Virus record (IMG/VR): IMGVR_UViG_3300020202_000079
Coordinates: 1-64,000 of that record
Origin: a virus
Direction: 5' to 3' (one strand)
Length of the DNA stretch: 64,000 nt
Part shown: in pieces, positions 7,034 through 60,824 of the stretch
Layout of the letters: each line of letters opens with the position of its first letter
Numbering within the stretch: the first letter of the stretch is position 1
Notes under the pieces: generated by a model
The model's database searches: none
What the model was told of the DNA's origin: nothing
What the model saw: only the letters and a program-made list of their open reading frames with translations
Made by a program: the position numbers and the translations under genes

Positions 7034-7059
7034 CCTTTCAGCCTGATCCTGATCCCGGG

Positions 7060-7080: not shown

Positions 7081-7136
7081 TCTTCTCCCCTTTCGCCAAG
7101 CATGGCGGCCGATAGGCCGAAAACAGGAGAACGAGC

Positions 7137-7850: not shown

Positions 7851-7897
7851 AAACCGCCGCTCTCCCCGCACTCATTCGCCACTGAGGTTGCCCTGCC

Positions 7898-8305: not shown

Positions 8306-8307
8306 TC

Positions 8308-8568
8308 ATGAAAGCCAAGATGACGTTCCACTACACGAGCGCGGCCGGCGCGATCGCGCTCGCCAAGGCCGGCGAGGCGATCCCCGCTGAGGACCGCGCC
8401 GTCTTTCGGGAAGGCGACCCGCGCGTTGAGCGCGTCGCTGAAGCCGTTCCGGCCGCGGCGGCGGCCGACGAGCTGCAGGCCGAGGACCCCGCACCGGTTC
8501 CGCCACCCCCGCCCGTGGATCAACTCAAGGCCAAGAAGCCCGCCAGCAAGCCCCGTCCCAAAAAATGA
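8308..8568 (+). CDS. Small proline/alanine-rich protein upstream of connector
   Basis: The 86-residue product begins with MKAKMTFHYTSAAGAIALA and ends in a proline- and lysine-rich tail (PPPPPVDQLKAKKP and a final KPRPKK), which looks disordered and basic. The ATG at 8308 is used; a TTG at 8302 overlapping the previous stop is an alternative. It overlaps the next gene by ATGA. Similar short proteins with basic tails occur just before gp6-like connectors in HK97-type phages, but no function is known. Confidence 0.55.
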   Translation: MKAKMTFHYTSAAGAIALAKAGEAIPAEDRAVFREGDPRVERVAEAVPAAAAADELQAEDPAPVPPPPPVDQLKAKKPASKPRPKK

Positions 8569-38580: not shown

Positions 38581-38788
38581 GGCGGGCGCGCGCAGCTTCC
38601 ATCGCCGCGTCGGCGACGCGCCGCTTCTCCAGCTCTTCCTCGAGCCGCTGCCAGATCGGCAGATAGAGATCGGCGCGCCGGCCAGCCTTGACCATGTAAT
38701 GCGCAGTCAGGTCCAGCCACCGCTCGATGTCGGCGGCCGTGACCGGGGGCAGGGGGCGGGTCGCCCAGTTCTGCCGTGGCTTTTTCAT
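38549..38788 (-). CDS. Small hypothetical protein, tail of leftward operon
   Basis: The 79-residue protein is basic and helical (DIERWLDLTAHYMVKAGRRA, then YLPIWQRLEEELEKRRVAD). It overlaps the preceding repeat-protein gene by ATGA and overlaps the integrase 3' end by 32 bp in a convergent arrangement. It is the last gene of the minus-strand early operon. Function is unknown. Confidence 0.55.
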   Translation of the reverse strand: MKKPRQNWATRPLPPVTAADIERWLDLTAHYMVKAGRRADLYLPIWQRLEEELEKRRVADAAMEAARARLTRSPDRTAA

Positions 38789-39840
38789 TCCACCTCGACC
38801 GGCTTGCCGTCGACCAGGCGATAGAAAACCATCGGCTTGATGCCGTCGCGGCCGGCAATGCCGGACCAGACGTTGCGGATCGAGCCATCGTAAGGGCTGC
38901 GCTCGACCAGGAAGAGCGCGCAGCCCTCGGCGCCGCGCACCTTGCCCTCAATGCCCGATGCGGTGGCAGCGCCCCAGTCGCCGGATGCGGTGGCAGCGCC
39001 CTGCGCTCCTGATGCCGTGGCAGCGCCCTGTTCACCGGATGCGGTGGCAGCGCCCTGATATCCAGATGCGGTGGCAGCGCCCTGATATCCCGATGCGGTC
39101 GCAGCGCCCTGATATCCCGATGCGGTGGCAGCGCCTCGCGTACCCGATGCGGTGGCAGCGCCCCGCTTGCCGGATGCGGTGGCAGCGCCCTGCGTACCCG
39201 ACGCGGTGGCAGCGCCTCCGTCTCCAGATGCGGTGGCAGCGCCCCAAGCTCCCGATGCGGTGGCAGCGCCCTGCGTACCCGATGCGGTGGCAGCGCCTCT
39301 GTCTCCCGATGCGGTGGCAGCGCCCTCGGTGCCAGATGCGGTGGCAGCGGCTCCCCACCCTGATGCGGTGGCAGCGCCCTGTTCACCGGATGCGGTGGCA
39401 GCGCCCCGGTCGCGATTGTTCTTCGCGCCTTCACGCTCGCCCGTTGCAAAGTCGCCCTTCACCCAAGTCACCCGCTCGGTGACATAGCGGATTGCGGCAG
39501 CGATCAGTTCCGGCAACCGGATCTCTGCCTTGATGGTGATCTCGGCCGCGGCGATCTTGGTATCGCCGCCTTTCTCGCGCGCGGTCTCGCCGCCGAGCTC
39601 GACCACGGCATAGCGGCTGGTCGCCGGCGGGTAGTAGGCGAAGACGTTGAGCGGATGCTCGCAGGCGTGAAAGCCGCTTTCGCACGCGACGACAGGGCCT
39701 TCGTGCTTGAAGCTGCCGCCGATCTCGAACTGGAAGTCGCGGCATTTCAGGTTCCGGTCGAAGCCCTTGTAGGCCACGATAGTGACGGGCTTTTCGGCAG
39801 GCACGGCTGCGGCCACGGCCGCCTTCGACTTGCGAGGCAT
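38785..39840 (-). CDS. DUF7666-like protein with 17 nonapeptide repeats
   Basis: The 351-residue protein (ATG 39840) has an N-terminal domain of about 130 residues (VTIVAYKGFDRNLKCRDFQF, ACESGFHACEHPLNVFAYY) resembling DUF7666. Seventeen near-perfect repeats of GAATASGxx follow, then a C-terminal VFYRLVDGKPVEVE. Only the last two residues of each repeat vary (EQ, TQ, YQ, DR and others). Such strict small-residue repeats form solenoid or beta-helix-like rods. GTG 39882 would add 14 residues but overlap the previous gene by 38 bp. Role unknown; length is likely variable. Confidence 0.7.
   Translation of the reverse strand: MPRKSKAAVAAAVPAEKPVTIVAYKGFDRNLKCRDFQFEIGGSFKHEGPVVACESGFHACEHPLNVFAYYPPATSRYAVVELGGETAREKGGDTKIAAAEITIKAEIRLPELIAAAIRYVTERVTWVKGDFATGEREGAKNNRDRGAATASGEQGAATASGWGAAATASGTEGAATASGDRGAATASGTQGAATASGAWGAATASGDGGAATASGTQGAATASGKRGAATASGTRGAATASGYQGAATASGYQGAATASGYQGAATASGEQGAATASGAQGAATASGDWGAATASGIEGKVRGAEGCALFLVERSPYDGSIRNVWSGIAGRDGIKPMVFYRLVDGKPVEVE
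38957..39405 (-). repeat. 27-bp tandem repeat array, 17 copies
   Basis: The core GATGCGGTGGCAGCGCC (plus strand) recurs every 27 bp from 38957 to 39389. It encodes GAATASGxx on the minus strand. The core is invariant apart from one copy, while the two variable codons change between copies. Such arrays expand and contract by slippage or recombination without breaking the frame. Confidence 0.92.
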
Positions 39841-47817: not shown

Positions 47818-48324
47818 ATGGTTCCGAACGCAAACGCGCGGCATTTCCTCATCAAGGCCAAGCAGCGCGACCTGATCACCGCCGCCGGCGGGCAGGTGCG
47901 CGCGGCCGAAATCTGCGGCTACGGCAAGTCGACCGTGGGGCGCTGGGCCGATCCCGGCAGCCCCGAATGGATGCCGCTCGACGCGCTGTTCAAGCTCGAG
48001 GAGGACACCGGCCGGCACGACCTCTCGGAAGCGATCGCCGCCTGCCGGGGAAAACGCTTCTCCGATGAGCCCGGGACAGCTGCCGCCAACGGCTCGGCCA
48101 TGTCGGCGCACGCCGCAGCGGTGGTGCAGATGGGCGAGCTGATGACCACCGGCGCTCTCGCCTTCGCCGACGGCAAGCTTACGCCGGCGGAAGCGACGCA
48201 GATCGACCGGGCGCTCTCCAAGCTGGAAGAGGCGGTCGAGGAGTATCGCAAGGTGATGGCGGGCGCGCGCGGCGCCGGCGGCCTCGACCTGGTCGGCAAA
48301 GCCGACCGTGACGAGGAGCGCTGA
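47818..48324 (+). CDS. Putative CII-like/HTH regulatory protein
   Basis: The 168-residue protein starts with a lysine-rich segment and a possible helix-turn-helix (GQVRAAEICGYGKSTVGRWA) reminiscent of phage CII-type regulators. It continues with a long helix (TPAEATQIDRALSKLEEAVE). It is the first gene after the hairpin region and may control early transcription. The HTH pattern is clear enough for a DNA-binding call, but the exact family is not. Confidence 0.55.
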   Translation: MVPNANARHFLIKAKQRDLITAAGGQVRAAEICGYGKSTVGRWADPGSPEWMPLDALFKLEEDTGRHDLSEAIAACRGKRFSDEPGTAAANGSAMSAHAAAVVQMGELMTTGALAFADGKLTPAEATQIDRALSKLEEAVEEYRKVMAGARGAGGLDLVGKADRDEER

Positions 48325-48326
48325 CG

Positions 48327-48692
48327 ATGCTGCTGCGCTATTTCCTGATGGGCGTTCTGATAGCCGCCTTCTACCTTGCGCTCTGCGTGGCCGCCTGGCT
48401 CGGCGCGTTCGACGGCGAAGCGCGGGCGCACGATGCGCTGCCCACGGCCTCGGCGCCGCTTGGCTGGTCTTATCCGTTCTCCTGCTGCTCCGGCTACGAC
48501 TGCCGGCAGGTGCCCCCGGCCGACGTGTTCGAAGGGCCGGACGGCTACCGCATCGTCGGTACCGGCGAGGTGCTGGCCTACTCGGACAGCCGCATCAAGG
48601 ATTCGCCCGACGGCGAATTCCACTGGTGCTCGGTCGCCGGGAAATCTGACGGCAAGACCATCTGCCTCTTCGTGCCGCCGAGGGGGTTTTGA
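48327..48692 (+). CDS. Membrane or secreted hypothetical protein
   Basis: The 121-residue protein has one N-terminal hydrophobic segment (LLRYFLMGVLIAAFYLALCV), then a periplasmic-like domain with CCSGYDCRQVPPADV, ending in FHWCSVAGKSDGKTICLF. Four cysteines suggest disulfides. It may modify the cell surface of the lysogen or block superinfection (speculative). It overlaps the next gene. Confidence 0.55.
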   Translation: MLLRYFLMGVLIAAFYLALCVAAWLGAFDGEARAHDALPTASAPLGWSYPFSCCSGYDCRQVPPADVFEGPDGYRIVGTGEVLAYSDSRIKDSPDGEFHWCSVAGKSDGKTICLFVPPRGF

Positions 48693-48907
48693 TGCCGCGC
48701 TGGGAAAATCCCGACTGGAGCGCCGACGAAATCGAAGTGCTGAAGCTCGGCTGGTTGGAGCTCGGCAAAAGTGCCGAGCAATGCAGCCGGCTGCTCAAGC
48801 GGCGGCTCGGTGTAACGCGTTCGCGCGCCGCAATCTGCGGCTTTGTCGATCGCAACCGTGACGTTTTCGGCAGCCGCGTGCCGGCCTCGAAAGTCGAGGC
48901 AGCCTGA
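48692..48907 (+). CDS. GcrA-like DNA-binding protein
   Basis: The 71-residue protein resembles the N-terminal DNA-binding domain of GcrA, the alphaproteobacterial factor that works with sigma-70 at GANTC-methylated promoters. It has DWSADEIEVLKLGWLELGKS, then LLKRRLGVTRSRAAICGFVD, matching W-T-x-E-x-V-E-x-L-K-x-L-W ... G-V-T-R-N-A-V-I-G-K-V-H in GcrA. The RNA-polymerase-binding C-terminal domain is absent. It is overlapped by the ParB-like gene. The relationship is by sequence pattern and should be verified by profile search. Confidence 0.6.
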   Translation: MPRWENPDWSADEIEVLKLGWLELGKSAEQCSRLLKRRLGVTRSRAAICGFVDRNRDVFGSRVPASKVEAA

Positions 48908-49725
48908 TGCGCGCGATCGCACCCTTGCGCCTGCCGGACGTAACCCCTGCCATCATCAAGGGCGCGCCGCCGGTGGCGAAGCTGGTCGAGCCCGGCTCGC
49001 TCTATGTCGACGAGAGCTACCAGCGCGCGCTCTCGGAGCGATCGGTGAAGCTGATCCGCAAGATCGTGGCGGAATGGGACTGGCATGCGTTCAAGCCGCC
49101 GATCGTGGTCGAGGTCGAAGGCCGTTTCGAGGTGATCGACGGGCAGCACACCGCGATCGCCGCGGTGACGCATGGCGGAATCGACCAGCTGCCGGTGCTG
49201 ATCGTCGACGCCGAGACGGTGGGGTCGAAGGCTTCGGCCTTCGTGCGGCACAATCGCGACCGCATCCAGGTCACGCCGGTGCAGCTGCATACGGCCATGG
49301 TCGCGGCCGGCGACGAGGATGCCCAGACCGTGGCGCAGGTGTGCGAGCGCGCCGGGGTGAAGATCCTGCGCAGCCCGCCGGCGCTCGGCCGCTACGCCAC
49401 CGGCGACACGATGGCGATCACGACCGTCCGCGCCCTGGTGAACCGGCGCTACGCCGCCGGTGCCAGGCGGGTGCTGGAAACTTGCGTGAAAGCCGGCTGC
49501 GCGCCGGTCTCGGCCGCGATGATCAAGGCCGTCGAGCACCTGCTGTTCGCGCCCGAATATGCGGGCGAGCTCAACGAGGCGCGGGTCGCGCTCGTCGTCT
49601 CCGCCAACATGTCGACCATCGAGAAGGAGGCTGAACGCTTCGCGGCAGAGCGCAAGGTGCCGCTTTGGCGGGCGCTGGCCAGCGTCATCTACATGAACCG
49701 GCGGAAGGCCAAGAATGCAGCCTGA
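48907..49725 (+). CDS. ParB/sulfiredoxin-like nuclease-fold protein
   Basis: The 272-residue protein has an N-terminal ParB-type domain: LVEPGSLYVDESYQRALSER, then VIDGQHTAIAAV with the D-G-Q-H motif (residues 78-81). The rest is a helical domain with NRRYAAGARRVLETCVKAG. Similar proteins occur in phages and are proposed to bind or nick DNA. It is placed between the GcrA-like and CtrA-like genes. ParB-like CTPase function is unproven here. Confidence 0.7.
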   Translation: MRAIAPLRLPDVTPAIIKGAPPVAKLVEPGSLYVDESYQRALSERSVKLIRKIVAEWDWHAFKPPIVVEVEGRFEVIDGQHTAIAAVTHGGIDQLPVLIVDAETVGSKASAFVRHNRDRIQVTPVQLHTAMVAAGDEDAQTVAQVCERAGVKILRSPPALGRYATGDTMAITTVRALVNRRYAAGARRVLETCVKAGCAPVSAAMIKAVEHLLFAPEYAGELNEARVALVVSANMSTIEKEAERFAAERKVPLWRALASVIYMNRRKAKNAA

Positions 49726-50074
49726 CGTCATCCAGCAGATGCGCGAGGAGATCGACCGGCTGCGGGAGCGCATCCGCGTGCTCGAGGCGGCGCTGGCGCC
49801 GGCGCTCGACATCCCGATCGAATACGGGCTGACCGCCACGGAGGGCCGGCTGTTCGCGCATCTCAGCGCCAGGCCGCAGGTGACAAAGCGCGGGCTTTAC
49901 CTCGCCGCCTACGGTGACTGGACCGACGAGACGCCCGACGAGGCGGTGATCGAATCGCATGTGTGCAGGTTGCGACGAAAGCTGCTGCCGTTCGGTTTCC
50001 GGATCATCGGCGAGCGCTTCGCCGGCTACCGCCTCATCCAGCCCGGCGACAGGGGGGGGCGACATGCAGCCTGA
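49715..50074 (+). CDS. Winged-helix protein A, CtrA/OmpR-type DNA-binding domain
   Basis: The 119-residue protein begins with a short coiled coil (QQMREEIDRLRERIRVLEAA) and continues as an OmpR/CtrA-like winged helix: EYGLTATEGRLFAHLSARPQ, then VIESHVCRLRRKLLPFGFRI with a terminal GERFAGYRL wing. The receiver domain is missing. It is a tandem paralogue of the next gene. It overlaps the ParB-like gene by 11 bp and the next by 11 bp. Confidence 0.7.
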   Translation: MQPDVIQQMREEIDRLRERIRVLEAALAPALDIPIEYGLTATEGRLFAHLSARPQVTKRGLYLAAYGDWTDETPDEAVIESHVCRLRRKLLPFGFRIIGERFAGYRLIQPGDRGGRHAA

Positions 50075-50423
50075 CCTCGTCCAGCGGCAGAACAACGAGA
50101 TCGCCATGCTGCGCGAGCGCGTGAGGCAGCTCGAGGAGGCGCTTGCGCCGGCCGCGGTCACGGTGCCGCTGGAATGGGCGCTGACCGCGGCCGAGGCGCG
50201 CGTCTTCGCACATCTCACCACGCGCGAGATCGCCAGCAAGCAGTCGATCATGGCGGCCCTCTACAGCCTGCGGCCGGATCTGGACGAGCCGGAGATCAAG
50301 ATCGTCGACGTCTTCATCTGCAAGATGCGCAAGAAGATTGCGCCGTTCGGGGTGAAGATCGTCACCGTTTGGGGCCAAGGCTACGCGCTCGTCGGCCGTG
50401 AAGACTATGCGAGGGCGGCATGA
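50064..50423 (+). CDS. Winged-helix protein B, CtrA-like without receiver domain
   Basis: The 119-residue paralogue of the preceding gene also has an N-terminal coiled coil (NNEIAMLRERVRQLEEALA), then a winged helix. Here DEPEIKIVDVFICKMRKKI is nearly the same as the recognition-helix region of CtrA (D-E-P-E-x-K-I-I-D-V-F-I-C-K-L-R-K-K-L). It is followed by VTVWGQGYALV, like the CtrA C-terminal wing V-W-G-R-G-Y-V-L. Lacking the phosphorylatable receiver, it would bind DNA constitutively (inference). It would dimerise through the coiled coil. Confidence 0.75.
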   Translation: MQPDLVQRQNNEIAMLRERVRQLEEALAPAAVTVPLEWALTAAEARVFAHLTTREIASKQSIMAALYSLRPDLDEPEIKIVDVFICKMRKKIAPFGVKIVTVWGQGYALVGREDYARAA

Positions 50424-51279
50424 CTCCCCGCCTGATTCACGGCCTCGCCGAGGAACATTGGCCGGCAAGGTGGCCGAGCGAAGCGTTGACATGATCTACG
50501 CCGATCCGCCGTTCGGAAACGAGCAGGTTTGGAGCGGCCGGTCCGGTTCGTTCGACGATCGCTGGAGCGATCGCGCCCCCTCGCAGGCCTCATGGGAAAG
50601 GTTGCGCGCTCATAACGTGGCCGGTGCTGCCGTGCTCGAAGTCGCGACGGCTAGCGCTGCTGCGCGCTCCTATCTCGGGGCCATGGCCGATATCCTGGTC
50701 GCCAGTCACCGCTGCCTGAAACCGACGGGAACGTTCTGGCTGCATTTCGACGACACGATGGGGGCGCATCTCCGACTGCTTTGCGACGTGGTCTTCGGGC
50801 CGCAACTGGCAATCGGGACGCTGTTCTGGAAGCGCACCCTCGGCGGCCACGCCAACGCGAAATCATTCGGGCGCGTGCATGACACCATCGCATGCTACGG
50901 ACGCACCGAGGCCGCGCGCTGGCGGTTGTGGCGCATCGGCACCCTGGGTGGCGATCCCTTCGGAAGCGGCTTTAACCGGTTCCATGACTTTGCCGATGCG
51001 GCCCCACTCAACACTGGCAGCAATGAGCGTGTGGGCTATCCAACGCAGAAGCCCGTCGATCTGCTCGTGGAGATCATAAGGGCTGCGACGCGCCCGGGGG
51101 ACCTGGTTGTCGATCCGACATGCGGCAGCGGGACCACGCTGGTTGCGGCTATGAAAACAGGCCGCCGAGCCATCGGTATCGATCAATCTGCTGATGCAAT
51201 TGCAGCGGCCCGTAAGCGGATAAGCGGCCCGTCTACGAGCCAAGGTTCGCTCTTCGATTTCGCCGAGGTGGCGGCATGA
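50420..51279 (+). CDS. DNA methyltransferase, beta-class (CcrM-like), with probable 5' frameshift
   Basis: This is an N6-adenine or N4-cytosine DNA methyltransferase: motif IV VDMIYADPPFGNEQVW near the N-terminus and motif I VVDPTCGSGTTLVAAM near the C-terminus, the beta-class order seen in CcrM. The best start is ATG 50420 in an ATGA overlap with the CtrA-like gene (opening MTPRLIHGLAEEH), but it runs into a stop. The rest is open in another frame from 50398. A one-base deletion near 50450 would explain it. GTG 50470 or ATG 50491 may rescue a shorter protein. Length about 286 if restored. Confidence 0.7.
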
Positions 51280-52529
51280 CGATCGACCTGCCGCCGCCCG
51301 ACCAGATCAAGGCGCATCCGCTGGCCGAGCTGTTTCCGATGCTGCCGGAGCAGGAGATCGCCGAGCTCGCGGACGACATCGTGACCTATGGCCAGCGCAT
51401 GCCGATCGTCATCTTCGAGAACCAGGTGCTCGACGGGCGCAACCGGCTTGCCGCCTGCCTGTTTGCGCAGGTCGAGCCGAGCTTCGTCGTCTACGATGGC
51501 GACGATCCGCTCGGCTTCGTGCTGTCGCACAATCTGCACCGGCGGCACCTTTCGCCCAGCCAGCGCGCCATGGTGGCGGCCTCCATCGTCGACTGGGAGG
51601 TCGGGCTCAACCAGCATTCGGCAGGGTCTGCAAATTTGCAGACCCACAAGGCGGCCGAGCGGCTGTCGATCAGCGAGCGGGCGGTGGCTGCGGCCAAGCG
51701 CATCCGCGAGCACGGCTCGGCCGAGCTGGTGCAGGCGATCCGCGACGGTCGCGTCTCCGTGCATGCCGGCGAGGCGCTGTCCGACCTGGCGCACGAGGCG
51801 CAGCGTGCCGCGCTCGCCGAGGAAGAGCGCGAGATCATCCGGCGGGCGAAGGAAATCCGGGCGGCCAGGCAGCAGCTGCGCCACGCCGAGCGGCTGGCCA
51901 ACATGGAGCGGATCGCCTCGGCCGGGGCATCGCGCGCGCCGCAAAAGCTCGACCGGCTCTATGGCGTCTACTACGCCGACCCGCCCTGGAAATTCGACGT
52001 GCGCTCGGAAGAGACCGGGCGCGAGAAGAGCGCCGAGAACCACTATCCGACGATGACGACGGAGGAGATCGCGGCGCTGCTGGCCGAACTGATCGGCGGC
52101 GACACGCCGGCGGTGTTCTTCCTCTGGGCCACCAACCCGATGCTGCCCGACGCGCTCGACGTGCTTGAGGCCTGCGGCTTCACCTATGTGCATCACTGGA
52201 TCTGGGACAAGGAAGTGGCCGGCACCGGCTATTGGGGCCGCGACCGGCATGAGCTGCTCCTGATCGGCCGTCGCGGCGACATCGCCTCGCCGCTGCCCGG
52301 CACGCAGCCGGAGACGGTGTTCCGGGTGAAGAAGGGCAGGCACTCGGCCAAGCCGGATGTGTTCGCCGAAACGATCGAAAAGCTGTTTCCGGGCGTGTCG
52401 CGGCTGGAGCTTTTCGCGCGGCGTGCGCGGCCGGGCTGGGATGCGTGGGGTTACGAGGCCGACGAGGCGGGCGGCGAGGCGGACCAGCCGGAAACGGCAA
52501 CGCCGCCCGCCGAGGCGGTGCCGGCATGA
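51276..52529 (+). CDS. ParB-like / MT-A70 methyltransferase fusion
   Basis: The 417-residue protein fuses two domains. Residues 1-210 are ParB-like (AHPLAELFPMLPEQEIAELA; LDGRNRLAAC with D-G-R-N-R at 53-57; helix-turn-helix segments). Residues 225-395 are an MT-A70 adenine methyltransferase with the catalytic DPPW (ADPPWKFDV at 234-242) and FFLWATNPML, WIWDKEVAGTGYWGR. This fusion occurs in phages and mobile elements and methylates adenine in a sequence set by the ParB-like part. It overlaps the preceding methyltransferase by ATGA. The family call is firm; the target site is unknown. Confidence 0.8.
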   Translation: MTIDLPPPDQIKAHPLAELFPMLPEQEIAELADDIVTYGQRMPIVIFENQVLDGRNRLAACLFAQVEPSFVVYDGDDPLGFVLSHNLHRRHLSPSQRAMVAASIVDWEVGLNQHSAGSANLQTHKAAERLSISERAVAAAKRIREHGSAELVQAIRDGRVSVHAGEALSDLAHEAQRAALAEEEREIIRRAKEIRAARQQLRHAERLANMERIASAGASRAPQKLDRLYGVYYADPPWKFDVRSEETGREKSAENHYPTMTTEEIAALLAELIGGDTPAVFFLWATNPMLPDALDVLEACGFTYVHHWIWDKEVAGTGYWGRDRHELLLIGRRGDIASPLPGTQPETVFRVKKGRHSAKPDVFAETIEKLFPGVSRLELFARRARPGWDAWGYEADEAGGEADQPETATPPAEAVPA

Positions 52530-52534
52530 ACGTG

Positions 52535-53188
52535 TCAGATCGTCAGATGTTCTGGATTCTCGGCTATGAGCTCAACGCGTTCATGCCGCGCTCCGATGAT
52601 CTTGAGTTTGACGCGAGCACCAACCGGGACGTTGAGCGTCCCTTCTATCGGACCATCTTTTTTTGCGAACATCTGGATCGAGACCCGCACACGGGGCGGT
52701 GGTTTGGTCCGGTCAAGCCATCCCGGAATAGTGAAATGGACGCCTTCCGTTTCCGGATTCACGGTTTGGAGCACCTGGAGCATTGGGTCTTGGAACTCGA
52801 TGCTGCCAAAGACGGTCTGACCCTCGGCTGTAATGTCCTCGACTTCGATCGACCGGCGGTTCCAATTCGTGATGACCACATCCACCACCGAAAAACCTTC
52901 GTCGCTCTCCTCCAGCTCGACCGTCGGCAGGGCATCTCCGACGACGAATGCCGTCTGGCGGCGGGCCTCGCGCATTTGGCCGGCAAGGAAGGTGATGGTA
53001 GCGCCGGCGGCAATGGCCGCGGCCCAACCGCTGAGTGCTCCGATCCATTCGCGCAGGCAATCCGCCTCGCCAGCGACGCACCAGTCGGCGCGCACAATGG
53101 CGAAATCGGAAATGGCGAGAAAGGCAAAACCGCCCAATGCGGCGCCTCCGAGAAGAACGATGAAGTCGCCGGTGCCCATGTCGCGCAT
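52535..53188 (-). CDS. Membrane protein encoded antisense within the early operon
   Basis: The 217-residue protein has two membrane segments (FIVLLGGAALGGFAFLAISD and WIGALSGWAAAIAAGATITF) and a soluble C-terminal domain (SIEVEDITAEGQTVFGSIEF). It is the only minus-strand gene in this long plus-strand operon and is convergent with the MT-A70 gene five bases away. The lone opposite gene suggests a lysogenically expressed cargo gene with its own promoter near 53200 (inference). The family is unknown. Confidence 0.55.
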   Translation of the reverse strand: MRDMGTGDFIVLLGGAALGGFAFLAISDFAIVRADWCVAGEADCLREWIGALSGWAAAIAAGATITFLAGQMREARRQTAFVVGDALPTVELEESDEGFSVVDVVITNWNRRSIEVEDITAEGQTVFGSIEFQDPMLQVLQTVNPETEGVHFTIPGWLDRTKPPPRVRVSIQMFAKKDGPIEGTLNVPVGARVKLKIIGARHERVELIAENPEHLTI

Positions 53189-53232
53189 GCGGCGCTGAAT
53201 AGCACAGCCGGCGTTTGCTTCGCGAGGGCCGC

Positions 53233-55857
53233 ATGAACGCGACCGTCGCCGCGCCTCTCGATCCCTATCTCGATTTCCTCCGCGGCAAGATCAAGCTGGC
53301 CGAGCTCGCCGGCTTCCATGTCGAGCTGGACGAGATCAACCCGGCGCTCGCCCCACATTGCCGCGCGATCGTGAGGTGGGCCGCGGCCGGCGGCTGCCGC
53401 GCGATCTTTGCCAGCTTCGGGCTGCACAAGACCTCGATCCAGATCGAGCTCATGCGGCTGATCGGCAAGCGCTTCCGCGGGCCGCGCCTGATCGTGATCC
53501 CGCTCGGCGTGCGGCACGAGTTCTTCGCCGAGGTCGCGGAACGCTTCACCGGGGAGCATGCCGCGACGCTGCGCTTCGTGCGGCGCGACAGCGATATCGA
53601 CTGGGCCGACGATTCCGTCATCTGGCTCGCCAATTACGAGAGCGTGCGCGACGGCAAGATCGACCTGTCGCGCTTCGTCGCCGCCTCGCTCGACGAGGCG
53701 GCAGTGCTGCGCGGCTACGGCACCAAGACCTTCCAGACCTTCCTGCCGCTGTTCGACAAGGTGCGCTTCAAGTTCGTCGCGACCGCCACGCCCTCGCCGA
53801 ACCGCACCAAGGAGCTGATCCACTATGCTGGCTTCCTCGGCATCATGGACACCGGCCAGGCGCTGACGCGCTTCTTCCAGCGCAACTCGGAGACGGCCGG
53901 CGACCTGACGCTATACCCGCACAAGGTCGACGAGTTCTGGCTGTGGGTGCACAGCTGGGCCGTCTTCCTGCAGAGCCCGGCCGATCTCGGCTTTCCCGAT
54001 GAGGGGTACCGGCTGCCGCCGCTCGAGGTGCGCTGGCACGAGGTGCCAATCGACCACTCCACCGCCGGCGTCGACCGCGACGGGCAAGGCCTGCTGTTGC
54101 GAAACACCGCGCTGGGCTTGAGCCAGGCCGCCGCGGCCAAGCGCGACAGCCTGCCGGCGCGGATCGAGAAGATGAAGGCACTGATCGCCGAGGATCCTGC
54201 GGCGCACCGGGTGCTGTGGCACGACCTCGAGGCGGAGCGCGAGGCGATCGAGGCGACGGTGCCCGGCGTGCGCTCGATCTACGGCAGCCAAGACCTGGAC
54301 GCGAACGAAGAGAACGCCGTCGGCTTCAAGGAAGGGCGGTTCGCCTTCTTGGCCACGAAGCCGGAGATGAGCGGCGCCGGCAACAATTTCCAGAAACACT
54401 GCCACCACGCCATCTTCGTCGGCATCGGCTTCAAGTTTCACGACTTCATCCAGGCGGTGCATCGCATCGTGCGCTTCGGGCAGCATCACGCCTGCCGCAT
54501 CGACATCATCTACTCGGAAGCCGAGCGGGAGGTGCGCAAGAGCCTCGAAGGCAAGTGGGCCGAGCACGATTCCATGATGGGCCGCATGGCGGAGATCATC
54601 CGCCGCTACGGGCTCGCAGGCCTGCCGGCCGAAGATTTGCTAACGCGCTCGATCGGGGTCATGCGGCGGGTCGAGGAAGGCCAGTTCTTCCGCGTCGCGC
54701 ACAATGACGCGGTCGAGGAGGCGAAGCTGACGGCGGACGCGTCAGTCGGGCAGATCGTGACCTCGATCCCGTTCGCCAACCATTTCGAATATTGCGCCAG
54801 CTACAATGATTTCGGCCACACCGAAGACAATGGCCATTTCTGGCGGCAGATGGATTTCCTGACGCCGGAGCTCTACCGGATCCTGCAGCCGGGGCGGCTC
54901 GCCTGCATCCACGTCAAGGACCGGGTGCTGTTCGGCAACGTGACCGGCGAGGGCGTGCCGACCATCTCGCCCTTCCACGCCGAAGCGATCTTCCACTACC
55001 TCGCCCACGGCTTCCAGTATTTCGGCATGATCACCGTCGTCACCGACGTGGTGCGCGAGAACAACCAGACCTATCGGCTCAGCTATTCGGAGATGATGAA
55101 GGACGCCACCAAGATGGGCGTCGGCTGTCCCGAATACGTGCTCATCTTCCGCCGGCCGCAAAGCGACCAGAGCAAGGGCTATGCCGACCTGCCGGTGGTG
55201 CATGACAAGCCGCTGGTGATCGCCGCCGACGGCAGCCGGCAGCGCTGGAGCGACGGCGACAAGCGCAGCCAAGTGCCGGACAGCGGCTATACGCTGGCGC
55301 GCTGGCAGCTCGACGCGCATGCCTTCTGGCCGTCATCCGGCAACCGGCTCCTGACCACGGCCGAGCTGGTGAAGCTCGGCAGCAAGTCGACATCGGCTCT
55401 GTTCAAGCGCCTCTTCGAGGATGGCGGAGGCCCTTACGATTTCGCCGCACATGTGCGGCTCGGCGAGGAGCTGGCCGAGCGCGACAATCTGTCGAAGACC
55501 TACATGACGCTCGACCCGCCGTCGAAACATCCGGCGGTGTGGACCGACATCGTGCGCATGTTCACGCTGAACGGGCAGCAGGCGCAGAAGAACCTCGAGA
55601 AGCATGTCTGCCCGTTGCAGTTCGACATCGTCGACCGGCTGATCGAGCGCTACTCGAACCCGGGCGAGACGATCTACGACCCGTTCGGCGGGCTGATGAC
55701 GGTGCCCTACCGGGCGATCCTGAAGGGCCGGCGCGGGCAGGCCTCGGAACTCTCCGCCACCTATTTCCATGACGGGCTCAATTACTGCCGCCAGGCCGAA
55801 GCCAAGGTCGCGGTGCCCGACATGTTCGCGGCGCTGGAAGCGGAGGCAGCGGCATGA
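53233..55857 (+). CDS. SNF2-type helicase fused to DNA methyltransferase
   Basis: The 874-residue protein joins a helicase with a methyltransferase. The helicase part has a Walker A variant GLHKT (residues 63-67 in SFGLHKTSIQ), DEAA (154-157), a TATPSPNR motif III, and HRIVRFGQ near 410 as motif VI. The C-terminal half has a methyltransferase pattern: TSIPFANHFEYC (residues 510-521) and IYDPFGGLMTVPY (D816). Both active sites are altered: H replaces G in Walker A, and IPF replaces PPY in motif IV. It may be a non-canonical or regulated enzyme. ATG 53233 is preferred. Confidence 0.75.
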   Translation: MNATVAAPLDPYLDFLRGKIKLAELAGFHVELDEINPALAPHCRAIVRWAAAGGCRAIFASFGLHKTSIQIELMRLIGKRFRGPRLIVIPLGVRHEFFAEVAERFTGEHAATLRFVRRDSDIDWADDSVIWLANYESVRDGKIDLSRFVAASLDEAAVLRGYGTKTFQTFLPLFDKVRFKFVATATPSPNRTKELIHYAGFLGIMDTGQALTRFFQRNSETAGDLTLYPHKVDEFWLWVHSWAVFLQSPADLGFPDEGYRLPPLEVRWHEVPIDHSTAGVDRDGQGLLLRNTALGLSQAAAAKRDSLPARIEKMKALIAEDPAAHRVLWHDLEAEREAIEATVPGVRSIYGSQDLDANEENAVGFKEGRFAFLATKPEMSGAGNNFQKHCHHAIFVGIGFKFHDFIQAVHRIVRFGQHHACRIDIIYSEAEREVRKSLEGKWAEHDSMMGRMAEIIRRYGLAGLPAEDLLTRSIGVMRRVEEGQFFRVAHNDAVEEAKLTADASVGQIVTSIPFANHFEYCASYNDFGHTEDNGHFWRQMDFLTPELYRILQPGRLACIHVKDRVLFGNVTGEGVPTISPFHAEAIFHYLAHGFQYFGMITVVTDVVRENNQTYRLSYSEMMKDATKMGVGCPEYVLIFRRPQSDQSKGYADLPVVHDKPLVIAADGSRQRWSDGDKRSQVPDSGYTLARWQLDAHAFWPSSGNRLLTTAELVKLGSKSTSALFKRLFEDGGGPYDFAAHVRLGEELAERDNLSKTYMTLDPPSKHPAVWTDIVRMFTLNGQQAQKNLEKHVCPLQFDIVDRLIERYSNPGETIYDPFGGLMTVPYRAILKGRRGQASELSATYFHDGLNYCRQAEAKVAVPDMFAALEAEAAA

Positions 55858-56108
55858 AGCCCGACTTTTCGCCCGAGATGCTGCGGTTCTTCCTGCATGC
55901 GCGCTACCGCCATTCGGGCAGCGAGGCGCCGGCGGCGAAGGCGCTCAACTGGCTGCGCAAGGCGGCCGGCGTCGACGTCTACGACATGCGCGCGGCGATC
56001 GCCGGGCACCTGACCAGGGCCAAGCCGCGCGTGCGGCTGTGGGGCGCGCTCGGCCATGTGGTGGCCGACCATGGAATTACCCTGACGGATGATGGAGGGC
56101 AGCGCTGA
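55854..56108 (+). CDS. Small hypothetical protein
   Basis: The 84-residue protein (MKPDFSPEMLRFFLHARYRH) has a helical core (PAAKALNWLRKAAGVDVYDM) and a C-terminal GALGHVVADHGITLTDDG. It overlaps the helicase gene (ATGA) and the next gene. No domain is recognised. It probably belongs to the rightward early operon. Confidence 0.5.
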   Translation: MKPDFSPEMLRFFLHARYRHSGSEAPAAKALNWLRKAAGVDVYDMRAAIAGHLTRAKPRVRLWGALGHVVADHGITLTDDGGQR

Positions 56109-56374
56109 TGCGGGCCGGCTTCGACTGGCGGCGCTTTGGCCGCGACGTGCGCAAGGGCATTGCAGGGCGGGCGCTGAGGCCGCTCGCCGAAGAGGTGGGC
56201 GTAACTTCGACCGATCTCTCGCGCGCCTCATCCGGAACCAATGTCAGCATCGAGAAGGTGCTCGCCATGTGCGACGCATTCGGGCTCTCGGCGCGGCGCT
56301 ATTACCAGAAGCCGAGCCCTGAAAAATCAGCACGTTGCACCTCCGCTCACGTGAAACAGGAGGCGCGCGCATGA
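56108..56374 (+). CDS. XRE-type helix-turn-helix protein
   Basis: The 88-residue protein has a typical helix-turn-helix (LRPLAEEVGVTSTDLSRASS, residues about 23-42) with the helical follow-on SIEKVLAMCDAFGLSARRYY. It is probably a regulator within the early operon. The last twenty residues are polar. Start ATG 56108 overlaps the previous stop. Confidence 0.65.
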   Translation: MRAGFDWRRFGRDVRKGIAGRALRPLAEEVGVTSTDLSRASSGTNVSIEKVLAMCDAFGLSARRYYQKPSPEKSARCTSAHVKQEARA

Positions 56375-56961
56375 ACGGCTTGGCCGGTTTTCCAGCCCAG
56401 CAGGCGTGGGTGTGCGGGCTGTCGATCATGCAGCAATCGGTGCTGTTCGCCGCGGTGAGAGCGCCAGACGGCATCCGCAAGGATCATCCGGTCAAGGTGC
56501 TGTTGCGCTGGTACCGGCGCTGCGTCCTCGTCTCGGCCTTCGACGGCAAGGCCCTGACCGACCCCTTCGTCGGCGGCGGGGGCAGCTTCACCGGTCCCTA
56601 CGACATGCACCACGCCGCGGCCTTCGACCCGGCGCTGACGCCGAGCGAGCGGCGTGCGCTCGCATATGGCGATGTCGCAGTCTGGGATCGGCTGCGGGTG
56701 AATTCGTTCGACGGGCAGCGGGACACCTATCTCCGTCACGTCGACGAGCTGCCGCACCACTTCCAGCTGCATTTCATGCATGCCGCCGAGATCGTCGGCT
56801 ACAAGCATCCCGACCTGGCCATCAGGAACTGGTGGCGGGACTTTTACGAAGCGCTCGTGAACGACGCGCATCTGTTTCCCGAAACCGAGGAGCAGATGGA
56901 TGAGCGGCTGAGCGACTGCGAGGCTGCGTGGCGCGCTCGTGAGTCGGTGGTGGCGCGATGA
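56371..56961 (+). CDS. Hypothetical early protein
   Basis: The 196-residue protein is coupled to its neighbours by ATGA overlaps. It has HPVKVLLRWYRRCVLVSAFDG and a glycine run (DPFVGGGGSFTGPYDMHHAA), then a C-terminal helical acidic segment (EEQMDERLSDCEAAWRARES). No catalytic motif is convincing, despite a weak DPF-like stretch. Function is unknown. Confidence 0.5.
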   Translation: MNGLAGFPAQQAWVCGLSIMQQSVLFAAVRAPDGIRKDHPVKVLLRWYRRCVLVSAFDGKALTDPFVGGGGSFTGPYDMHHAAAFDPALTPSERRALAYGDVAVWDRLRVNSFDGQRDTYLRHVDELPHHFQLHFMHAAEIVGYKHPDLAIRNWWRDFYEALVNDAHLFPETEEQMDERLSDCEAAWRARESVVAR

Positions 56962-57257
56962 GCGGCGAAGCCCACTGCACCGACAGCCTGCTGCCGATCA
57001 TCGCGCAGATGCACAATGCGGCCGACGACCGCGCACGCGCGGCGGTGCTGCTCGCCGTCTCCGATGCGATCCTGTGCAAATACCGGACTGTGTTCGACCA
57101 GGCCTGCCAGCGCGCGGCCTTCGACCTCGGCCGAAAATTCATCGAGATGCGGCGGGCCGAATGGTGTGCCAAGCGCGGGCGTGACGGACGGCATACCAAT
57201 CCACTGTTCGAGCAGGTGCGGGCCGAGTTCGCTGCGTTTGCCGCGGGAGGCGCCTGA
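56958..57257 (+). CDS. Small hypothetical protein
   Basis: The 99-residue protein has a helical core (RAAVLLAVSDAILCKYRTVF) with cysteines at two positions and ends in FEQVRAEFAAFAAGGA. It overlaps the previous gene. No motif or domain is identified. The upstream stop and this start share four bases. Confidence 0.5.
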   Translation: MSGEAHCTDSLLPIIAQMHNAADDRARAAVLLAVSDAILCKYRTVFDQACQRAAFDLGRKFIEMRRAEWCAKRGRDGRHTNPLFEQVRAEFAAFAAGGA

Positions 57258-57260
57258 GCC

Positions 57261-57863
57261 ATGGCGCGGGTCTCCTACGATCCGGAAGGCGACGTCAAGC
57301 TGCGGCGGGAGCGGGGCGGCCTGGATGCCGAGCTCAGCCGGATCTGCCGGCGCGAGGAAGCGCGCGCGCGAAAGTCGTGGAATGTGCTCAGCTCGCCCGA
57401 CGCGCCGCTGCCGCCCGGGCGCCAGGCATCGGCGCCGCGCGACGAGCAGGCGGCGGCACTGGCGCTGATCCACGACGCTGTGCGCGCCGGGCAGCAGCAG
57501 ATCGCCGCCGCGCACGCTGCGGCGAGAAAGCGAATCGCGGCCGCTCGCATCGAGGCGCAGGCGCTCCTCGCCACGCTGCCCGACTTCGCCGCGCTCGAGG
57601 CCGCGCCGGCGAAGCGCGGCAAGAGCGCCGGTCGCGCCATGCGCGAGGCTGCCGACCGGCGTGGCGTTCCGGTGGCGGCAATCATCAGCGCCTCGAAGAG
57701 CCCGGTGGCGAGGCTCGCACGCCTGGAGGCGGTTCTCGGTGTCGTGGACGCCTGCCCGGGGCTCTCCCGCGAGCAACTGGGGAAATTGTTCAAGCGCTCG
57801 GGCGAAACCTTCTCGCGGCTCTACCGTGAGGCGCTCGAAGCGCGGCGGAGAGGCGAGATATGA
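57261..57863 (+). CDS. Coiled-coil / HTH-like hypothetical protein
   Basis: The 200-residue protein has a helical, alanine- and arginine-rich middle (AAAHAAARKRIAAARIEAQ). Its C-terminal helix-turn-helix-like region (CPGLSREQLGKLFKRSGETF) resembles DnaA C-terminal DNA-binding domains in hydrophobic spacing. It may bind DNA in replication control. This is a pattern-based suggestion; the family is not recognised. Confidence 0.5.
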   Translation: MARVSYDPEGDVKLRRERGGLDAELSRICRREEARARKSWNVLSSPDAPLPPGRQASAPRDEQAAALALIHDAVRAGQQQIAAAHAAARKRIAAARIEAQALLATLPDFAALEAAPAKRGKSAGRAMREAADRRGVPVAAIISASKSPVARLARLEAVLGVVDACPGLSREQLGKLFKRSGETFSRLYREALEARRRGEI

Positions 57864-58282
57864 GCCTGCCGCGCGCCATGCATGTCGGACGGCAGCCGGA
57901 CGATCCGCGCACACTGTTCGTGATCTTCGACCGCGAGCCGACCGACGACGAGATGGAAGCGGTGCACGCGCTGCTGCGCGAGGCGGCGGACGAGGGTGCG
58001 GGCCCAAGGCCCTTCGCGCCGCTCGAGGCCTATGCCGACGCGGAGACGGGCGGGAAGAACCATGCGGCCGAAGCCGCGATGAAATGCGGCGACCCGGCCT
58101 TCAAGCGCTTCCTGATGGAACGGCACGGGCTGGAAAGCCCGGCCACCGACGAGCGCGCCACGCAGAAGCTGCGCAGCCTGCTCGGCATCACCAGCCGGCG
58201 CGAGCTCAACCATGGCGGGCTGTCAGCTGAAGCCTGGGTGCGGCTGCGCCGGGAGTTCGAGGCGTGGAGGCGCGCGGGATGA
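57860..58282 (+). CDS. Hypothetical early protein
   Basis: The 140-residue protein starts MSLPRAMHVGRQPDDPRTLF. The C-terminal part (AAEAAMKCGDPAFKRFLMER, then RSLLGITSRRELNHGGLSAE) has a pattern frequent in alphaproteobacterial phage early genes, but with no assigned function. It is coupled to genes on both sides. Confidence 0.5.
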   Translation: MSLPRAMHVGRQPDDPRTLFVIFDREPTDDEMEAVHALLREAADEGAGPRPFAPLEAYADAETGGKNHAAEAAMKCGDPAFKRFLMERHGLESPATDERATQKLRSLLGITSRRELNHGGLSAEAWVRLRREFEAWRRAG

Positions 58283-58464
58283 AGCGGGACCGTGCCTTCC
58301 TGATCTTCTACGCCCGCGTGCTCTTGCGCGAATGCGCAGCCCGGCGGGGCAGCAATGACTTTTACTGGATGCTGTTCGACGGTGCGCAACGGGCGCGACG
58401 TGAAGTCAAGGCGCTGTCGCGTCAGCCGCGCCAGCTCCGTCTTTTCGGGGAGGTCGCGGCTTGA
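58279..58464 (+). CDS. Small hypothetical protein
   Basis: The 61-residue basic protein (MKRDRAFLIFYARVLLRECA) contains SNDFYWMLFDGAQRARREVK. It overlaps both the upstream gene and the TTG start of the C5 methyltransferase. Its small size and basic nature could fit a nucleic-acid-associated protein, but there is no direct evidence. Confidence 0.45.
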   Translation: MKRDRAFLIFYARVLLRECAARRGSNDFYWMLFDGAQRARREVKALSRQPRQLRLFGEVAA

Positions 58465-60824
58465 ACGCACAATTCATGCTCGAAGCCCCGGCCCAGAGGG
58501 GCAAGCCGCTGCCGTGCCTGCCGGCGCGCGGGCGCATGCGGCCGGGCAGGCAGCATCGGCTTCCAGTCGCCCCGCCGCCTCTTTGCGGCCCGCGCAAGGT
58601 GGCCGTGGTCGACAGCTTCGCCGGCGGTGGCGGGGCATCGAACGGCATCGAGCTGGCGCTCGAAATCCTGTCGCGCATGGGCCTGCTGCCGGCCGGGCAC
58701 GACACGCTGGTGCACTACGCCATCAACCATGACGAGCCGGCGCTCGCCATGCACGAAGCCAACCATCCGCGCACCAAACACCTTCCCCACAATGTGTGGA
58801 AAGTGTCGCTGCGCGAGATCCTGGGCGACAATTTCTTCGGCCTGCTCTGGCTCTCGCCGGACTGCCGCGACCATTCGCCGGCCAAGGGCGGCCCGATCAC
58901 CTCGCGCTCGGTGCGCGATCTTGCCTGGGTGCTGGTGCGCTGGCTGAAGGAACTGCCGGACTGGCAGCGGCCATGGTGCATCTTTCTCGAAAACGTTCCG
59001 GCCTTCTCCAAGTGGAGCCCGCTGGTCGAGCGGGCCGACGGCAAGGGTTACGAGCGCGACAGGAGCCGCGAGGGCGAGATATTCCATCGTTTCGTGCGCA
59101 CGGTCTGCAAGCAGTTCGGCTATTCGGCCGGCTGGCACGAGGAGATGTCCTGCCGGCACGGCGACCCGACCATCCGCAAGAGGCTCTACCTGGTGTTCCG
59201 CCGCGATGGGGAGCGGGTCGAGTTTCCCGACCAGACGCACGGCGACCCGAAATCTGAAGCCGTGAAATGCGGCAAGCTCAAGCCCTGGCCCGTCGCCGCC
59301 GACATCATCGACTTCTCGCTGGACTGCCCGTCGATCTTCATGACCAAGGCGGAAGCCCGCGATTATACACGCCGGACCGGAAAGCGGCTGATCCGGCCGC
59401 TCGCCTTCAAGACCGACGCGCGGCTGGCCAAGGGCGTGAAGCGGCATGTGATCGATGCCGGCGACGAGGCCTTCGTGGCGACCTGCAACCATGCCGGCGA
59501 CGGGTTCCGCGGGCAACCGCTCGGCGAGCCGTTCGCCACCGTCGCCAGGGCGCGGGACGCGCACGGTCTCGTCCTGCCGCACGTTGCGGTGTTTCGCGGC
59601 GACAGCGACGGCAGGCCGGTGACGGCGCCGGCGCCGACCGCGACGGCCAACAGCTTCATCAAGCGGCCTGGCGGCGCCTCGCCTCTGGGCGTGGTCGAGA
59701 CGTCGGCGGTGCCGTTCGTCAGCCGCGGCCAGCATGGTGGCGGCAACCGGCCGGCCGGCGAGCCGCTGCACACGATCGCCGCGTCTGACGGCGACACCAA
59801 CCAGATCGCCCAAGCGGTGATCGCTCCCTTCGTGGCTGTCCAGAACAATGACACGAAGCCGGACGGCGCGCAGTATCACCGGGCGGGCCGGGCTGTGACA
59901 CAGCCGCTGGGAGCCGCGACGACATCGCCGACGCATTCGCTCGCAGTGCCCTATCTGGTGCCTCGCTACGGCGAGCGTGAGGGGCAGGAGCCGCGATCGC
60001 TCCCGATCGACCGGCCGATGCCGACCCCGGTGCCGGACGGCAACCAGGGCAGCCTCGCGGCCGTCTATCTGGCGCAGCACAATACGGGTGAGGAAGGGCA
60101 CTCGGCCGGCCGTCCGGTCTCGACCATCGTGCAGAAGGGCTGCACGCAAGGCGTCGTCGCGGCCTCGATCGTGGAGATGCACGGCCGCTCGGACGCGCGC
60201 CCGGCCGGCGATCCGCTTTCGGCCGCCACCGGCACCAGCGCGCACGGTTTGATGGCGGCGCACATGCTGTCGCTGAAGGGCAGCGATCGCCGCGACGGGC
60301 CGTGCACCGATGCGCACGATTCGATCTGTGCCGGTGGCCAGCACTCCGCCGTGGTGACGCTGCCGCTGGTGACGGCGTACTTCGGTCAAAGTGTCGCTTC
60401 GCCGGCCGATGAACCGCTGGGGGTCGCGGGAACGAAGGACCGCTTCGCGGCGACTCAAGTCGAGGCGGCCGTTCCGCCGCTCTCCGAGCGACAGCTCGCC
60501 CGCGCCCGCCAGGTCGCGGAGTTCCTCCGCTTCCACGGCTGCTGGGACGGCGGCGACTTCGTCACCGTCATCATCCGAGGCGTCACCTTCATCATCGTCG
60601 ACATCGGAATGCGCATGCTCACGCCGCGCGAGCTCGCACGCGCGCAGAGCTTCCCCGATTCCTACGTGCTTGACCCGATCGTGAACGGAAAGAGGCTCTC
60701 CGAGACCGAGCAGCGCCACAAGATCGGCAACTCGGTCACGCGCTTCACCGCCGCGGCGCACATCGTCGCCAATTACCGCCCGCCGCTGTCATGGGGCGAG
60801 CAGGAATATCGGGAGGCGGCTTAG
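58461..60824 (+). CDS. C5-cytosine DNA methyltransferase with repeat-rich target region
   Basis: The 787-residue enzyme methylates cytosine at C5. It has motif I DSFAGGGGASNGIELAL (F53-S60), motif IV SPDCRDHS with the catalytic C135 (a PDC instead of PCQ, as in many phage enzymes), motif VI FLENVP (177-180), and the C-terminal LTPRELARAQSFPDSYVL and HKIGNSV. Between about residues 345 and 665, where the target-recognition domain lies, it has about nine diverged repeats of a GRPxxxPLxTI ... HGLV pattern. It starts at TTG 58461 by TTGA overlap. The large variable region may give broad or multiple specificity. Confidence 0.82.
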   Translation: MNAQFMLEAPAQRGKPLPCLPARGRMRPGRQHRLPVAPPPLCGPRKVAVVDSFAGGGGASNGIELALEILSRMGLLPAGHDTLVHYAINHDEPALAMHEANHPRTKHLPHNVWKVSLREILGDNFFGLLWLSPDCRDHSPAKGGPITSRSVRDLAWVLVRWLKELPDWQRPWCIFLENVPAFSKWSPLVERADGKGYERDRSREGEIFHRFVRTVCKQFGYSAGWHEEMSCRHGDPTIRKRLYLVFRRDGERVEFPDQTHGDPKSEAVKCGKLKPWPVAADIIDFSLDCPSIFMTKAEARDYTRRTGKRLIRPLAFKTDARLAKGVKRHVIDAGDEAFVATCNHAGDGFRGQPLGEPFATVARARDAHGLVLPHVAVFRGDSDGRPVTAPAPTATANSFIKRPGGASPLGVVETSAVPFVSRGQHGGGNRPAGEPLHTIAASDGDTNQIAQAVIAPFVAVQNNDTKPDGAQYHRAGRAVTQPLGAATTSPTHSLAVPYLVPRYGEREGQEPRSLPIDRPMPTPVPDGNQGSLAAVYLAQHNTGEEGHSAGRPVSTIVQKGCTQGVVAASIVEMHGRSDARPAGDPLSAATGTSAHGLMAAHMLSLKGSDRRDGPCTDAHDSICAGGQHSAVVTLPLVTAYFGQSVASPADEPLGVAGTKDRFAATQVEAAVPPLSERQLARARQVAEFLRFHGCWDGGDFVTVIIRGVTFIIVDIGMRMLTPRELARAQSFPDSYVLDPIVNGKRLSETEQRHKIGNSVTRFTAAAHIVANYRPPLSWGEQEYREAA

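Follow-up and report, generated by a model that had tools for sequence, protein, structure and literature searches.

Our data directly support that a temperate phage of alphaproteobacteria encodes a receiver-less DNA-binding protein of the CtrA lineage, wH2, which carries CtrA-specific recognition residues and whose gene is paired with that of a ParB-fold protein. wH2 (119 aa; 50064..50423, + strand) comprises a coiled coil and a CtrA-type winged helix, and the ParB-like protein (DUF6551; 272 aa; 48907..49725, +) a ParB-CTPase fold plus a helical domain. Their genes lie in the window, that is the 64,000-nucleotide stretch of viral DNA that was analysed, within a cluster of five same-orientation ORFs with overlapping starts and stops (48692–51279). 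The stop of the first ORF, which codes for a GcrA-like protein, overlaps the ParB start at 48906–48909, and further overlaps connect ParB with wH1, a second winged-helix gene (49715–49725), and wH1 with wH2 (50064–50074). The cluster sits in an early rightward operon after the gene for a CII-like activator (47818..48324, +; phrog_101, 1.4e-19), which lies 5' of the operon and marks it as the early right region; an integrase and a repressor are also encoded. Gene positions, overlaps and the single early operon are thus as described in the first-pass annotation, whose central claim, a receiver-less CtrA-type DNA-binding domain beside a ParB-type factor in an early phage operon, is borne out by PF00486, NCBIfam, a phylogenetic tree and Foldseek. 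Conservation of the ParB-wH2 pair in dozens of phages makes this claim stronger than the sequence alone allowed.

Profile searches assigned wH2 to Trans_reg_C (PF00486, OmpR-type winged helix) with 34.2 bits as compared to a cut-off of 26.2. Among the NCBIfam families CtrA was matched best (E 8e-13, next family 4e-6), the score of 48.6 bits comparing with a full-length cut-off of 350. BLAST against 30 OmpR-type proteins from two host genomes, Mesorhizobium and Caulobacter, retrieved CtrA at 1e-11 and the runner-up at 3e-4, and annotated CtrA proteins were the top matches in an unbiased plasmid search with wH2. In the tree, the phage proteins and CtrA share one side of a branch with 98% SH-aLRT support, while 26 of the 27 other OmpR proteins are located on the opposite side. 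CtrA motifs are present in two stretches, DEPEIKIVDVFICKMRKKI at residues 74–92 (50283–50339) and VWGQGYALV at residues 102–110 (50367–50393), the latter having GQGY in place of the GRGY of CtrA at a wing position. Within the wH2 family, residues K79 (96%), D82 (96%), F84 (85%), C86 (94%), K87 (85%) and W103 (92%) are conserved (48 distinct rows, gathered via ParB and not via the recognition helix). With the exception of D82 (59%), these residues are not conserved in other OmpR proteins.

No receiver domain was detected in the 119 residues of wH2 by profile search. In its place, the AlphaFold model has a 25-residue helix (residues 3–27), which is followed by the winged helix. Thus, the second CtrA-like protein keeps the CtrA motifs and has a coiled coil instead of a receiver, as proposed before. 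The best fold matches of the model are DNA-binding domains of the OmpR family, and phmmer against solved structures returned weak matches only. CtrA, which shares the lineage of the DNA-binding domain and the recognition residues with wH2, is ~231 aa long and possesses a receiver. In addition, the N-terminal beta platform of OmpR effector domains is absent from the wH2 model, so that the orientation of wH2 on DNA could differ. The missing receiver would allow wH2 to escape control by CckA-ChpT.

The ParB-like protein matches PF20188 (DUF6551; 36.3 bits, cut-off 26.8) and phrog_1033 (ParB-like; 6.6e-18), and its AlphaFold model (pLDDT 83) retrieves the ParB-CTPgammaS structure 7bnr (3.7e-6), Noc and KorB as top Foldseek matches. 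YQR and DGQHTA are invariant in the family and the N..R motifs are conserved, while NCBIfam, including TIGR00180 for canonical partition ParB, gave no match. Family and fold are those of the phage DUF6551 proteins with ParB-CTPase fold, which bind CTP or ATP; CtrA and winged-helix partners do not come up in the main text of the respective study (PMC12704722). A CtrA-type winged-helix gene lies directly 3' of ParB in 54 of 78 ParB-recruited viral loci, and all seven strong ParB matches in Hyphomicrobiales genomes (7/7) have a winged-helix gene directly behind. One copy of wH2 is encoded by a Mesorhizobium prophage (L071). The ParB-like gene is the constant partner of wH2, and from this pairing of genes we infer a partnership of the two proteins. 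An operon of this ParB/CtrA-domain type appears not to have been described yet; no near relatives at the DNA level were found among named phages.

wH1 (49715..50074, +) is a tandem paralog of wH2, likewise composed of a coiled coil and an OmpR-type winged helix, and falls barely inside Trans_reg_C (26.8 bits, cut-off 26.2). The wH1-wH2 tandem is also present in L001, L002, L012, L023 and L026–L029, and identity between both proteins amounts to 53–60% in the coil as compared to 34–40% in the DNA-binding domain (three pairs). The recognition helix of wH1 is altered (IESHVCRLRRK), with ERFAGY where wH2 has VWGQGY, and E82, S83, H84 and R103 occupy positions at which CtrA-type residues would be D, V, F and W. 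This change suggests that the specificity of wH1 is not CtrA-like. In BLAST, wH1 preferred other OmpR proteins over CtrA, all matches being weak. Hence, of the two receiver-less CtrA-like proteins claimed previously, wH2 is confirmed by its CtrA-specific residues, whereas wH1 is confirmed only in part.

Receiver-less winged helices of CtrA type are also known from other alphaproteobacterial phages, namely from the roseophage RDJLPhi1 (PMC6363796) and, in the form of related helix-turn-helix proteins, from phages of Rhodobacter and Paracoccus. However, the gene in RDJLPhi1 lies between homologs of gafA and rcc01866, the Rhodobacter and Paracoccus proteins have long, other N-terminal regions, and proteins of the RDJLPhi1 type have neither an annotated ParB gene adjoining nor a tandem wH1. 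The precedents, receiver-less CtrA in RDJLPhi1 and GcrA in phiCbK, are single cell-cycle genes in a few phages.

We prefer the reading that ParB and wH2 form an early regulatory pair that acts mainly on host CtrA sites, and judge its chances to be about even; as CtrA boxes are not in excess in pair-bearing phages, control of host CtrA sites is unproven. The core would consist of two genes made early in infection or induction, coding for the DUF6551 nucleotide-binding protein of ParB type and for wH2. The latter would form a dimer that has the DNA-reading domain of CtrA and no receiver, and is predicted to bind CtrA-type (TTAA) half-sites without a need for phosphorylation via CckA-ChpT. Its main targets would be the host CtrA sites at the replication origin and at motility/pilus and cell-cycle promoters, where it may compete with CtrA or mimic it while being blind to phosphorylation, and the ParB-like protein would be its putative co-regulator. 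wH1, whose coiled coil is similar but whose recognition helix differs, probably combines with wH2 to address a second or composite site, whereas the GcrA-like protein and the methyltransferase would be exchangeable neighbours outside the core. A CtrA head without its switch, recurring beside ParB in dozens of phages, suggests that the phage may occupy CtrA sites on its own terms. The 'host takeover device' of the first-pass annotation is putative. Alphaproteobacterial phages respond to CtrA via CtrA boxes (PMC9437464); if the preferred reading is true, many temperate phages write to CtrA sites, beyond merely reading them. The pair would also offer a small natural phosphorylation-blind CtrA and a defined two-protein set.

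Alternatively, the pair may regulate the phage itself, which we regard as possible albeit clearly less likely. In this case, wH2, together with wH1 and ParB, would bind phage operators and set when early or late genes are transcribed. The likeness to CtrA would then stem from a captured host gene whose specificity was re-adapted to these operators. KorB-KorA likewise consists of a ParB-fold protein and a small DNA-binding protein, although KorA, unlike wH2, is not an OmpR-type winged helix. This ParB-type clamp and its partner control their own replicon, plasmid RK2 (PMC11790492), which argues for self-regulation, as do the location of the pair in an early operon, immediately behind the CII-like gene, and the receiver-less CtrA of RDJLPhi1, which sits between regulators (PMC6363796). 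However, the exact sequence TTAA-N7-TTAA has 0 occurrences in 20 whole pair-bearing phage records, and near-matches to the CtrA box in the early regions of 45 pair-bearing loci number 22 as compared to 15.5 expected. CtrA boxes and half-sites are not in excess in the window, in the 45 loci, in the 20 records or in intergenic as compared to coding counts, and self-regulation via canonical CtrA boxes was rejected on these grounds. Repeat operators common to distant pair-bearing loci were not found either. Moreover, the CtrA recognition residues are kept across widely diverged phages, suggesting that the CtrA site is still the target. The lack of canonical CtrA boxes in the phages is compatible with host targets or half-sites.

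We consider it doubtful that, following the logic of KorB-KorA, the receiver-less CtrA domain directs or locks a ParB-type NTP-dependent clamp at host CtrA sites, which would override the CckA-ChpT-CtrA circuit, with wH1 adding a second half-site specificity via coiled-coil mixing. A role in phage replication or plasmid-like partition, in which wH2 would be the site-specific loader that brings the ParB-type protein onto a centromere or origin of the phage, would suit the ParB/Noc/KorB fold, the DNA-metabolism neighbours and the presence of DnaA beside the pair in L003 but is unlikely, as a search for a repeated parS-like site found none and the phage encodes an integrase.

Equally unlikely is that the entire five-gene cluster reproduces the CtrA-GcrA-CcrM circuit in a phage and acts as one takeover device, even though wH2 is of CtrA type. 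The small GcrA-DBD-like protein (48692..48907, +) scored 13.2 bits with Pfam GcrA (cut-off 26.9; residues 8–54 on profile positions 2–42), and a profile built from host GcrA proteins gave 14.4 bits as compared to a shuffle maximum of 6.9 (0 of 2000 reach 14.4). The proposed likeness to GcrA thus exceeds shuffled sequences but stays below the Pfam cut-off. This weak match is confined to the DNA-binding domain, and the protein stops at 71 aa without linker or C-terminal sigma-interacting domain (layout according to PMC7403470), in agreement with the earlier remark that the polymerase-binding part is absent. phmmer against solved structures provided weak matches only, no relatives were found in viral contigs and related loci have no counterpart at the corresponding position. 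phiCbK likewise carries a GcrA relative, gp222 (PMC3556154), which is detected as Pfam GcrA, in contrast to the protein in the window. In favour of a circuit copy, full GcrA adjoins the pair in sister phages L025 and L049, DnaA in L003, and GcrA-like proteins adjoin the winged-helix gene in L006 and L227. However, GcrA occurs in 11 of 44 pair-bearing records versus 4 of 39 controls, which is no clear excess.

The methyltransferase (50398..51279, +) is a beta-class N6/N4 DNA enzyme (PF01555, 4.5e-31). Its designation as CcrM-type was rejected: profile search detected no RAMA, the C-terminal domain of CcrM; identity to CcrM is 27% and covers the catalytic domain only; NCBIfam CcrM gave 66 bits at a cut-off of 830, with true CcrM of two hosts reaching ~645; and closer kin are found in actinophages. 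The CcrM C-terminal domain is present in 0 of 48 related records. Phage enzymes methylating GANTC are already known (PMC5537653), which would be in line with a circuit copy. GANTC is depleted in the window (93 versus 314 in dinucleotide shuffles), more mildly so as compared to synonymous-codon shuffles (74 versus 114.5, sd 8.8); this fits a CcrM-bearing host and says nothing on the specificity of the methyltransferase. As the GcrA-like protein is weak and lacks a counterpart at this position elsewhere, the wH1 helix is changed and the methyltransferase is not CcrM, core cell-cycle proteins united in one cassette find no support, CtrA-specific features being limited to wH2. Likewise, comparison of related loci and records led us to reject a full-length CtrA-GcrA-CcrM cassette as conserved unit.

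The 5' end of the methyltransferase gene is apparently frameshifted: the ATG at 50420 opens MTPRLIHG and runs into a stop after 24 codons, and the catalytic frame begins only at GTG 50398 or ATG 50407. The next operon gene codes for a ParB-like domain fused to an MT-A70 methyltransferase (51276..52529, +; MT-A70 1.7e-20; phrog_21315 4e-155), relatives of which are present in 22 fetched loci, and a helicase plus methylase protein is encoded further downstream in the early region (53233..55857, +; phrog_16 DNA helicase 3e-102; PF01555).

The virus record comprises 64,214 bases, most of which lie in the window, and the presence of genes for a large terminase, portal, tape measure, integrase, repressor and replication initiator indicates that its source is a temperate tailed phage. 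None of the named phages searched at the DNA level is near it; the closest protein relatives are found in Hyphomicrobiales prophages, e.g. that of Mesorhizobium sp. B2-3-4 (L071). Compared to synonymous-codon shuffles, GANTC (74 versus 114.5) and TTAA (6 versus 26) are rarer than expected in the window, which would fit a phage whose host, as we infer, uses both words. The first-pass annotation had described a cell-cycle-like cassette of five genes at 48692–51279, and five genes overlapping head to tail are indeed present there, in the early rightward region downstream of a CII-like gene (phrog_101). A lone minus-strand ORF of 217 aa (52535–53188) within this plus-strand early operon is possibly an inserted cargo gene.

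The second winged-helix protein of the cassette, wH2 (50064–50423), is really CtrA-like as judged by its sequence. Both CtrA motifs ascribed to it are present. The protein has 119 aa and lacks a receiver domain, in whose place an AlphaFold model based on 50 related rows (pLDDT 84.6) puts a single N-terminal helix (residues 3–27), in line with the proposed coiled coil. A winged helix follows; the model does not show the beta platform with which OmpR-type effector domains usually begin at their N-terminus. Foldseek matches of the model are OmpR-family DNA-binding domains. The CtrA lineage is evident from NCBIfam, in which CtrA scores E 8e-13 and the second-best family 4e-6, and from BLAST against 30 OmpR-type proteins of one Mesorhizobium and one Caulobacter genome (the two CtrAs, 1e-11; next, 3e-4). 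Likewise, annotated CtrA proteins rank top in an unbiased tblastn search of plasmids with wH2. A tree of 113 DNA-binding domains, whose few columns give little resolution within the phage/CtrA group, places all phage proteins and CtrA on one branch (98% SH-aLRT) versus 26 of 27 other OmpR-type domains. To avoid using the helix as bait, a second set of wH2 proteins was collected through ParB; its 48 distinct rows retain the CtrA recognition residues K79 (96%), I80 (94%), D82 (96%), V83 (96%), F84 (85%), C86 (94%), K87 (85%), T101 (96%) and W103 (92%). Other OmpR-type proteins mostly carry R or N at 79, H at 84, S or G at 86 and R at 103. Most host CtrA rows were picked by the helix pattern and match it to 100% by construction, the fair comparison being with L164 and L165, two CtrAs for which PF00486 was the sole search profile. 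The wing reads GQGY in wH2 but GRGY in CtrA.

The ParB-type factor claimed for the cassette proved to be a 272-aa DUF6551 protein (48907–49725; 36.3 bits) with a ParB fold, whose model best matches CTP-bound ParB, Noc and KorB in Foldseek. Among the residues invariant in its family, YQR (38–40), DGQHTA (78–83) and N116/D118 appear to be placed like the nucleotide-binding boxes of ParB, and binding of CTP or ATP is reported for ParB-fold proteins of the DUF6551 family from phages (PMC12704722). Recruitment of viral contigs with wH2 yielded 66 loci, most of the closer ones with the ParB gene directly upstream. Conversely, ParB recruited 80 viral loci, 78 of which are not cut by a contig end; a winged-helix gene was scored within reach in 48 of these, and six more (L195, L201, L213, L251, L263, L268) carry one with an over-extended ORF start, giving 54/78, many records being close kin and hence not independent. 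Of 297 genomes sampled from the order to which L071 belongs, 16 also encode the ParB protein; all seven places above 360 bits adjoin a winged-helix gene, and weaker ones mostly do not. Some ParB relatives, in cyanophages among others, lack such a gene. Taken together, these counts make the conserved, coupled ParB–wH2 pair a real, lineage-limited module.

The other supposed CtrA-like protein, wH1 (49715–50074), is a tandem paralog of wH2. wH1 proteins uniformly have an ESH(V/I/M)-type recognition helix, with RF.GY in the wing; therefore the CtrA signature is lost, and only wH2 upholds the claim of two CtrA-like proteins, yet wH1 itself is conserved. The wH1–wH2 order recurs in L001, L002, L012, L023 and L026–L029, and in nine ParB-recruited loci overlapping this set. 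In three phages, wH1 and wH2 are 53–60% identical in their coil regions versus 34–40% in their DNA-binding domains, which suggests shared dimerization and split DNA specificity.

The GcrA-like ORF (48692–48907) covers the DNA-binding domain only (residues 1–45 in GcrA; PMC7403470) and, as had been noted, lacks the polymerase-binding part; its identity as GcrA is weakly supported (13.2 bits on Pfam; 14.4 bits on a host-GcrA profile, with no shuffle above 6.9). No relatives of it were found in the viral contigs searched. Sister phages offer better examples: full GcrA adjoins the pair in L025 (6605–7354) and L049 (3532–4116) and lies beside a CtrA-like winged-helix gene in L057 (4964–5704); DBD-only or divergent versions occur in L006 and L227. 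Over whole records, GcrA is present in 11/44 with the pair versus 4/39 controls, a set that itself includes many ParB relatives, suggesting a possible preference for pair-bearing records. In L003, the gene immediately downstream of the pair (6980–8698) codes for a DnaA-like protein. In L262 (3434–4762) and L265 (3344–4768), ParB relatives are fused N-terminally to a domain that resembles the sigma-interacting C-terminal domain of GcrA (CRWP..WCG..YCPEH).

The methyltransferase (50398–51279) has a beta-class core, but assignment as CcrM is rejected: it lacks a RAMA domain, which is also absent from 48 related records, and is 27% identical to host CcrM and ~34% identical, over most of its length, to Streptomyces and Mycobacterium phage enzymes. 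Streptomyces and Mycobacterium hosts lack the CtrA–GcrA–CcrM circuit. In L277 and L278, relatives come after the ParB gene, and the enzyme is therefore a neighbour of the module. GANTC-specific phage enzymes unrelated to CcrM exist (PMC5537653), so that this enzyme may recognize GANTC or another motif. Its 5' end appears frameshifted: at 50398–50520, its frame and likely start ATG (50420) are out of frame, reflecting a frameshift or an assembly error. The early region (50398–60824) encodes four methyltransferase-domain proteins (N6/N4, MT-A70 with ParB, helicase-methylase, cytosine-5).

We propose that wH2 would act as a coiled-coil dimer, binding CtrA-type half-sites independently of phosphorylation, with the ParB-like protein as its partner. 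KorB–KorA (PMC11790492), in which a ParB-fold protein works with a small protein that binds DNA, provides a useful working model but is no evidence of membership. CtrA sites were also sought in the phages themselves: 20 pair-bearing records contain no canonical box, and early regions of pair-bearing phages show no excess of CtrA boxes. Host sites are therefore somewhat more probable targets than phage sites. Known precedents are single genes or systems, namely the receiver-less CtrA of RDJLPhi1 (PMC6363796), GcrA encoded by phiCbK (PMC3556154) and CtrA boxes through which host CtrA controls several phages (PMC9437464); a search mostly outside subscription journals found no published description of a ParB/CtrA-domain pair, which appears to be new.

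Elsewhere in the window, a tandem repeat (20467–21470; 450-bp unit, 2.2 copies, 95% matches) lies in a structural-region gene (20277–21752), and a 27/81-bp tandem repeat of ~17 copies (38954–39411) lies within a minus-strand gene (38785–39840; phrog_4433).
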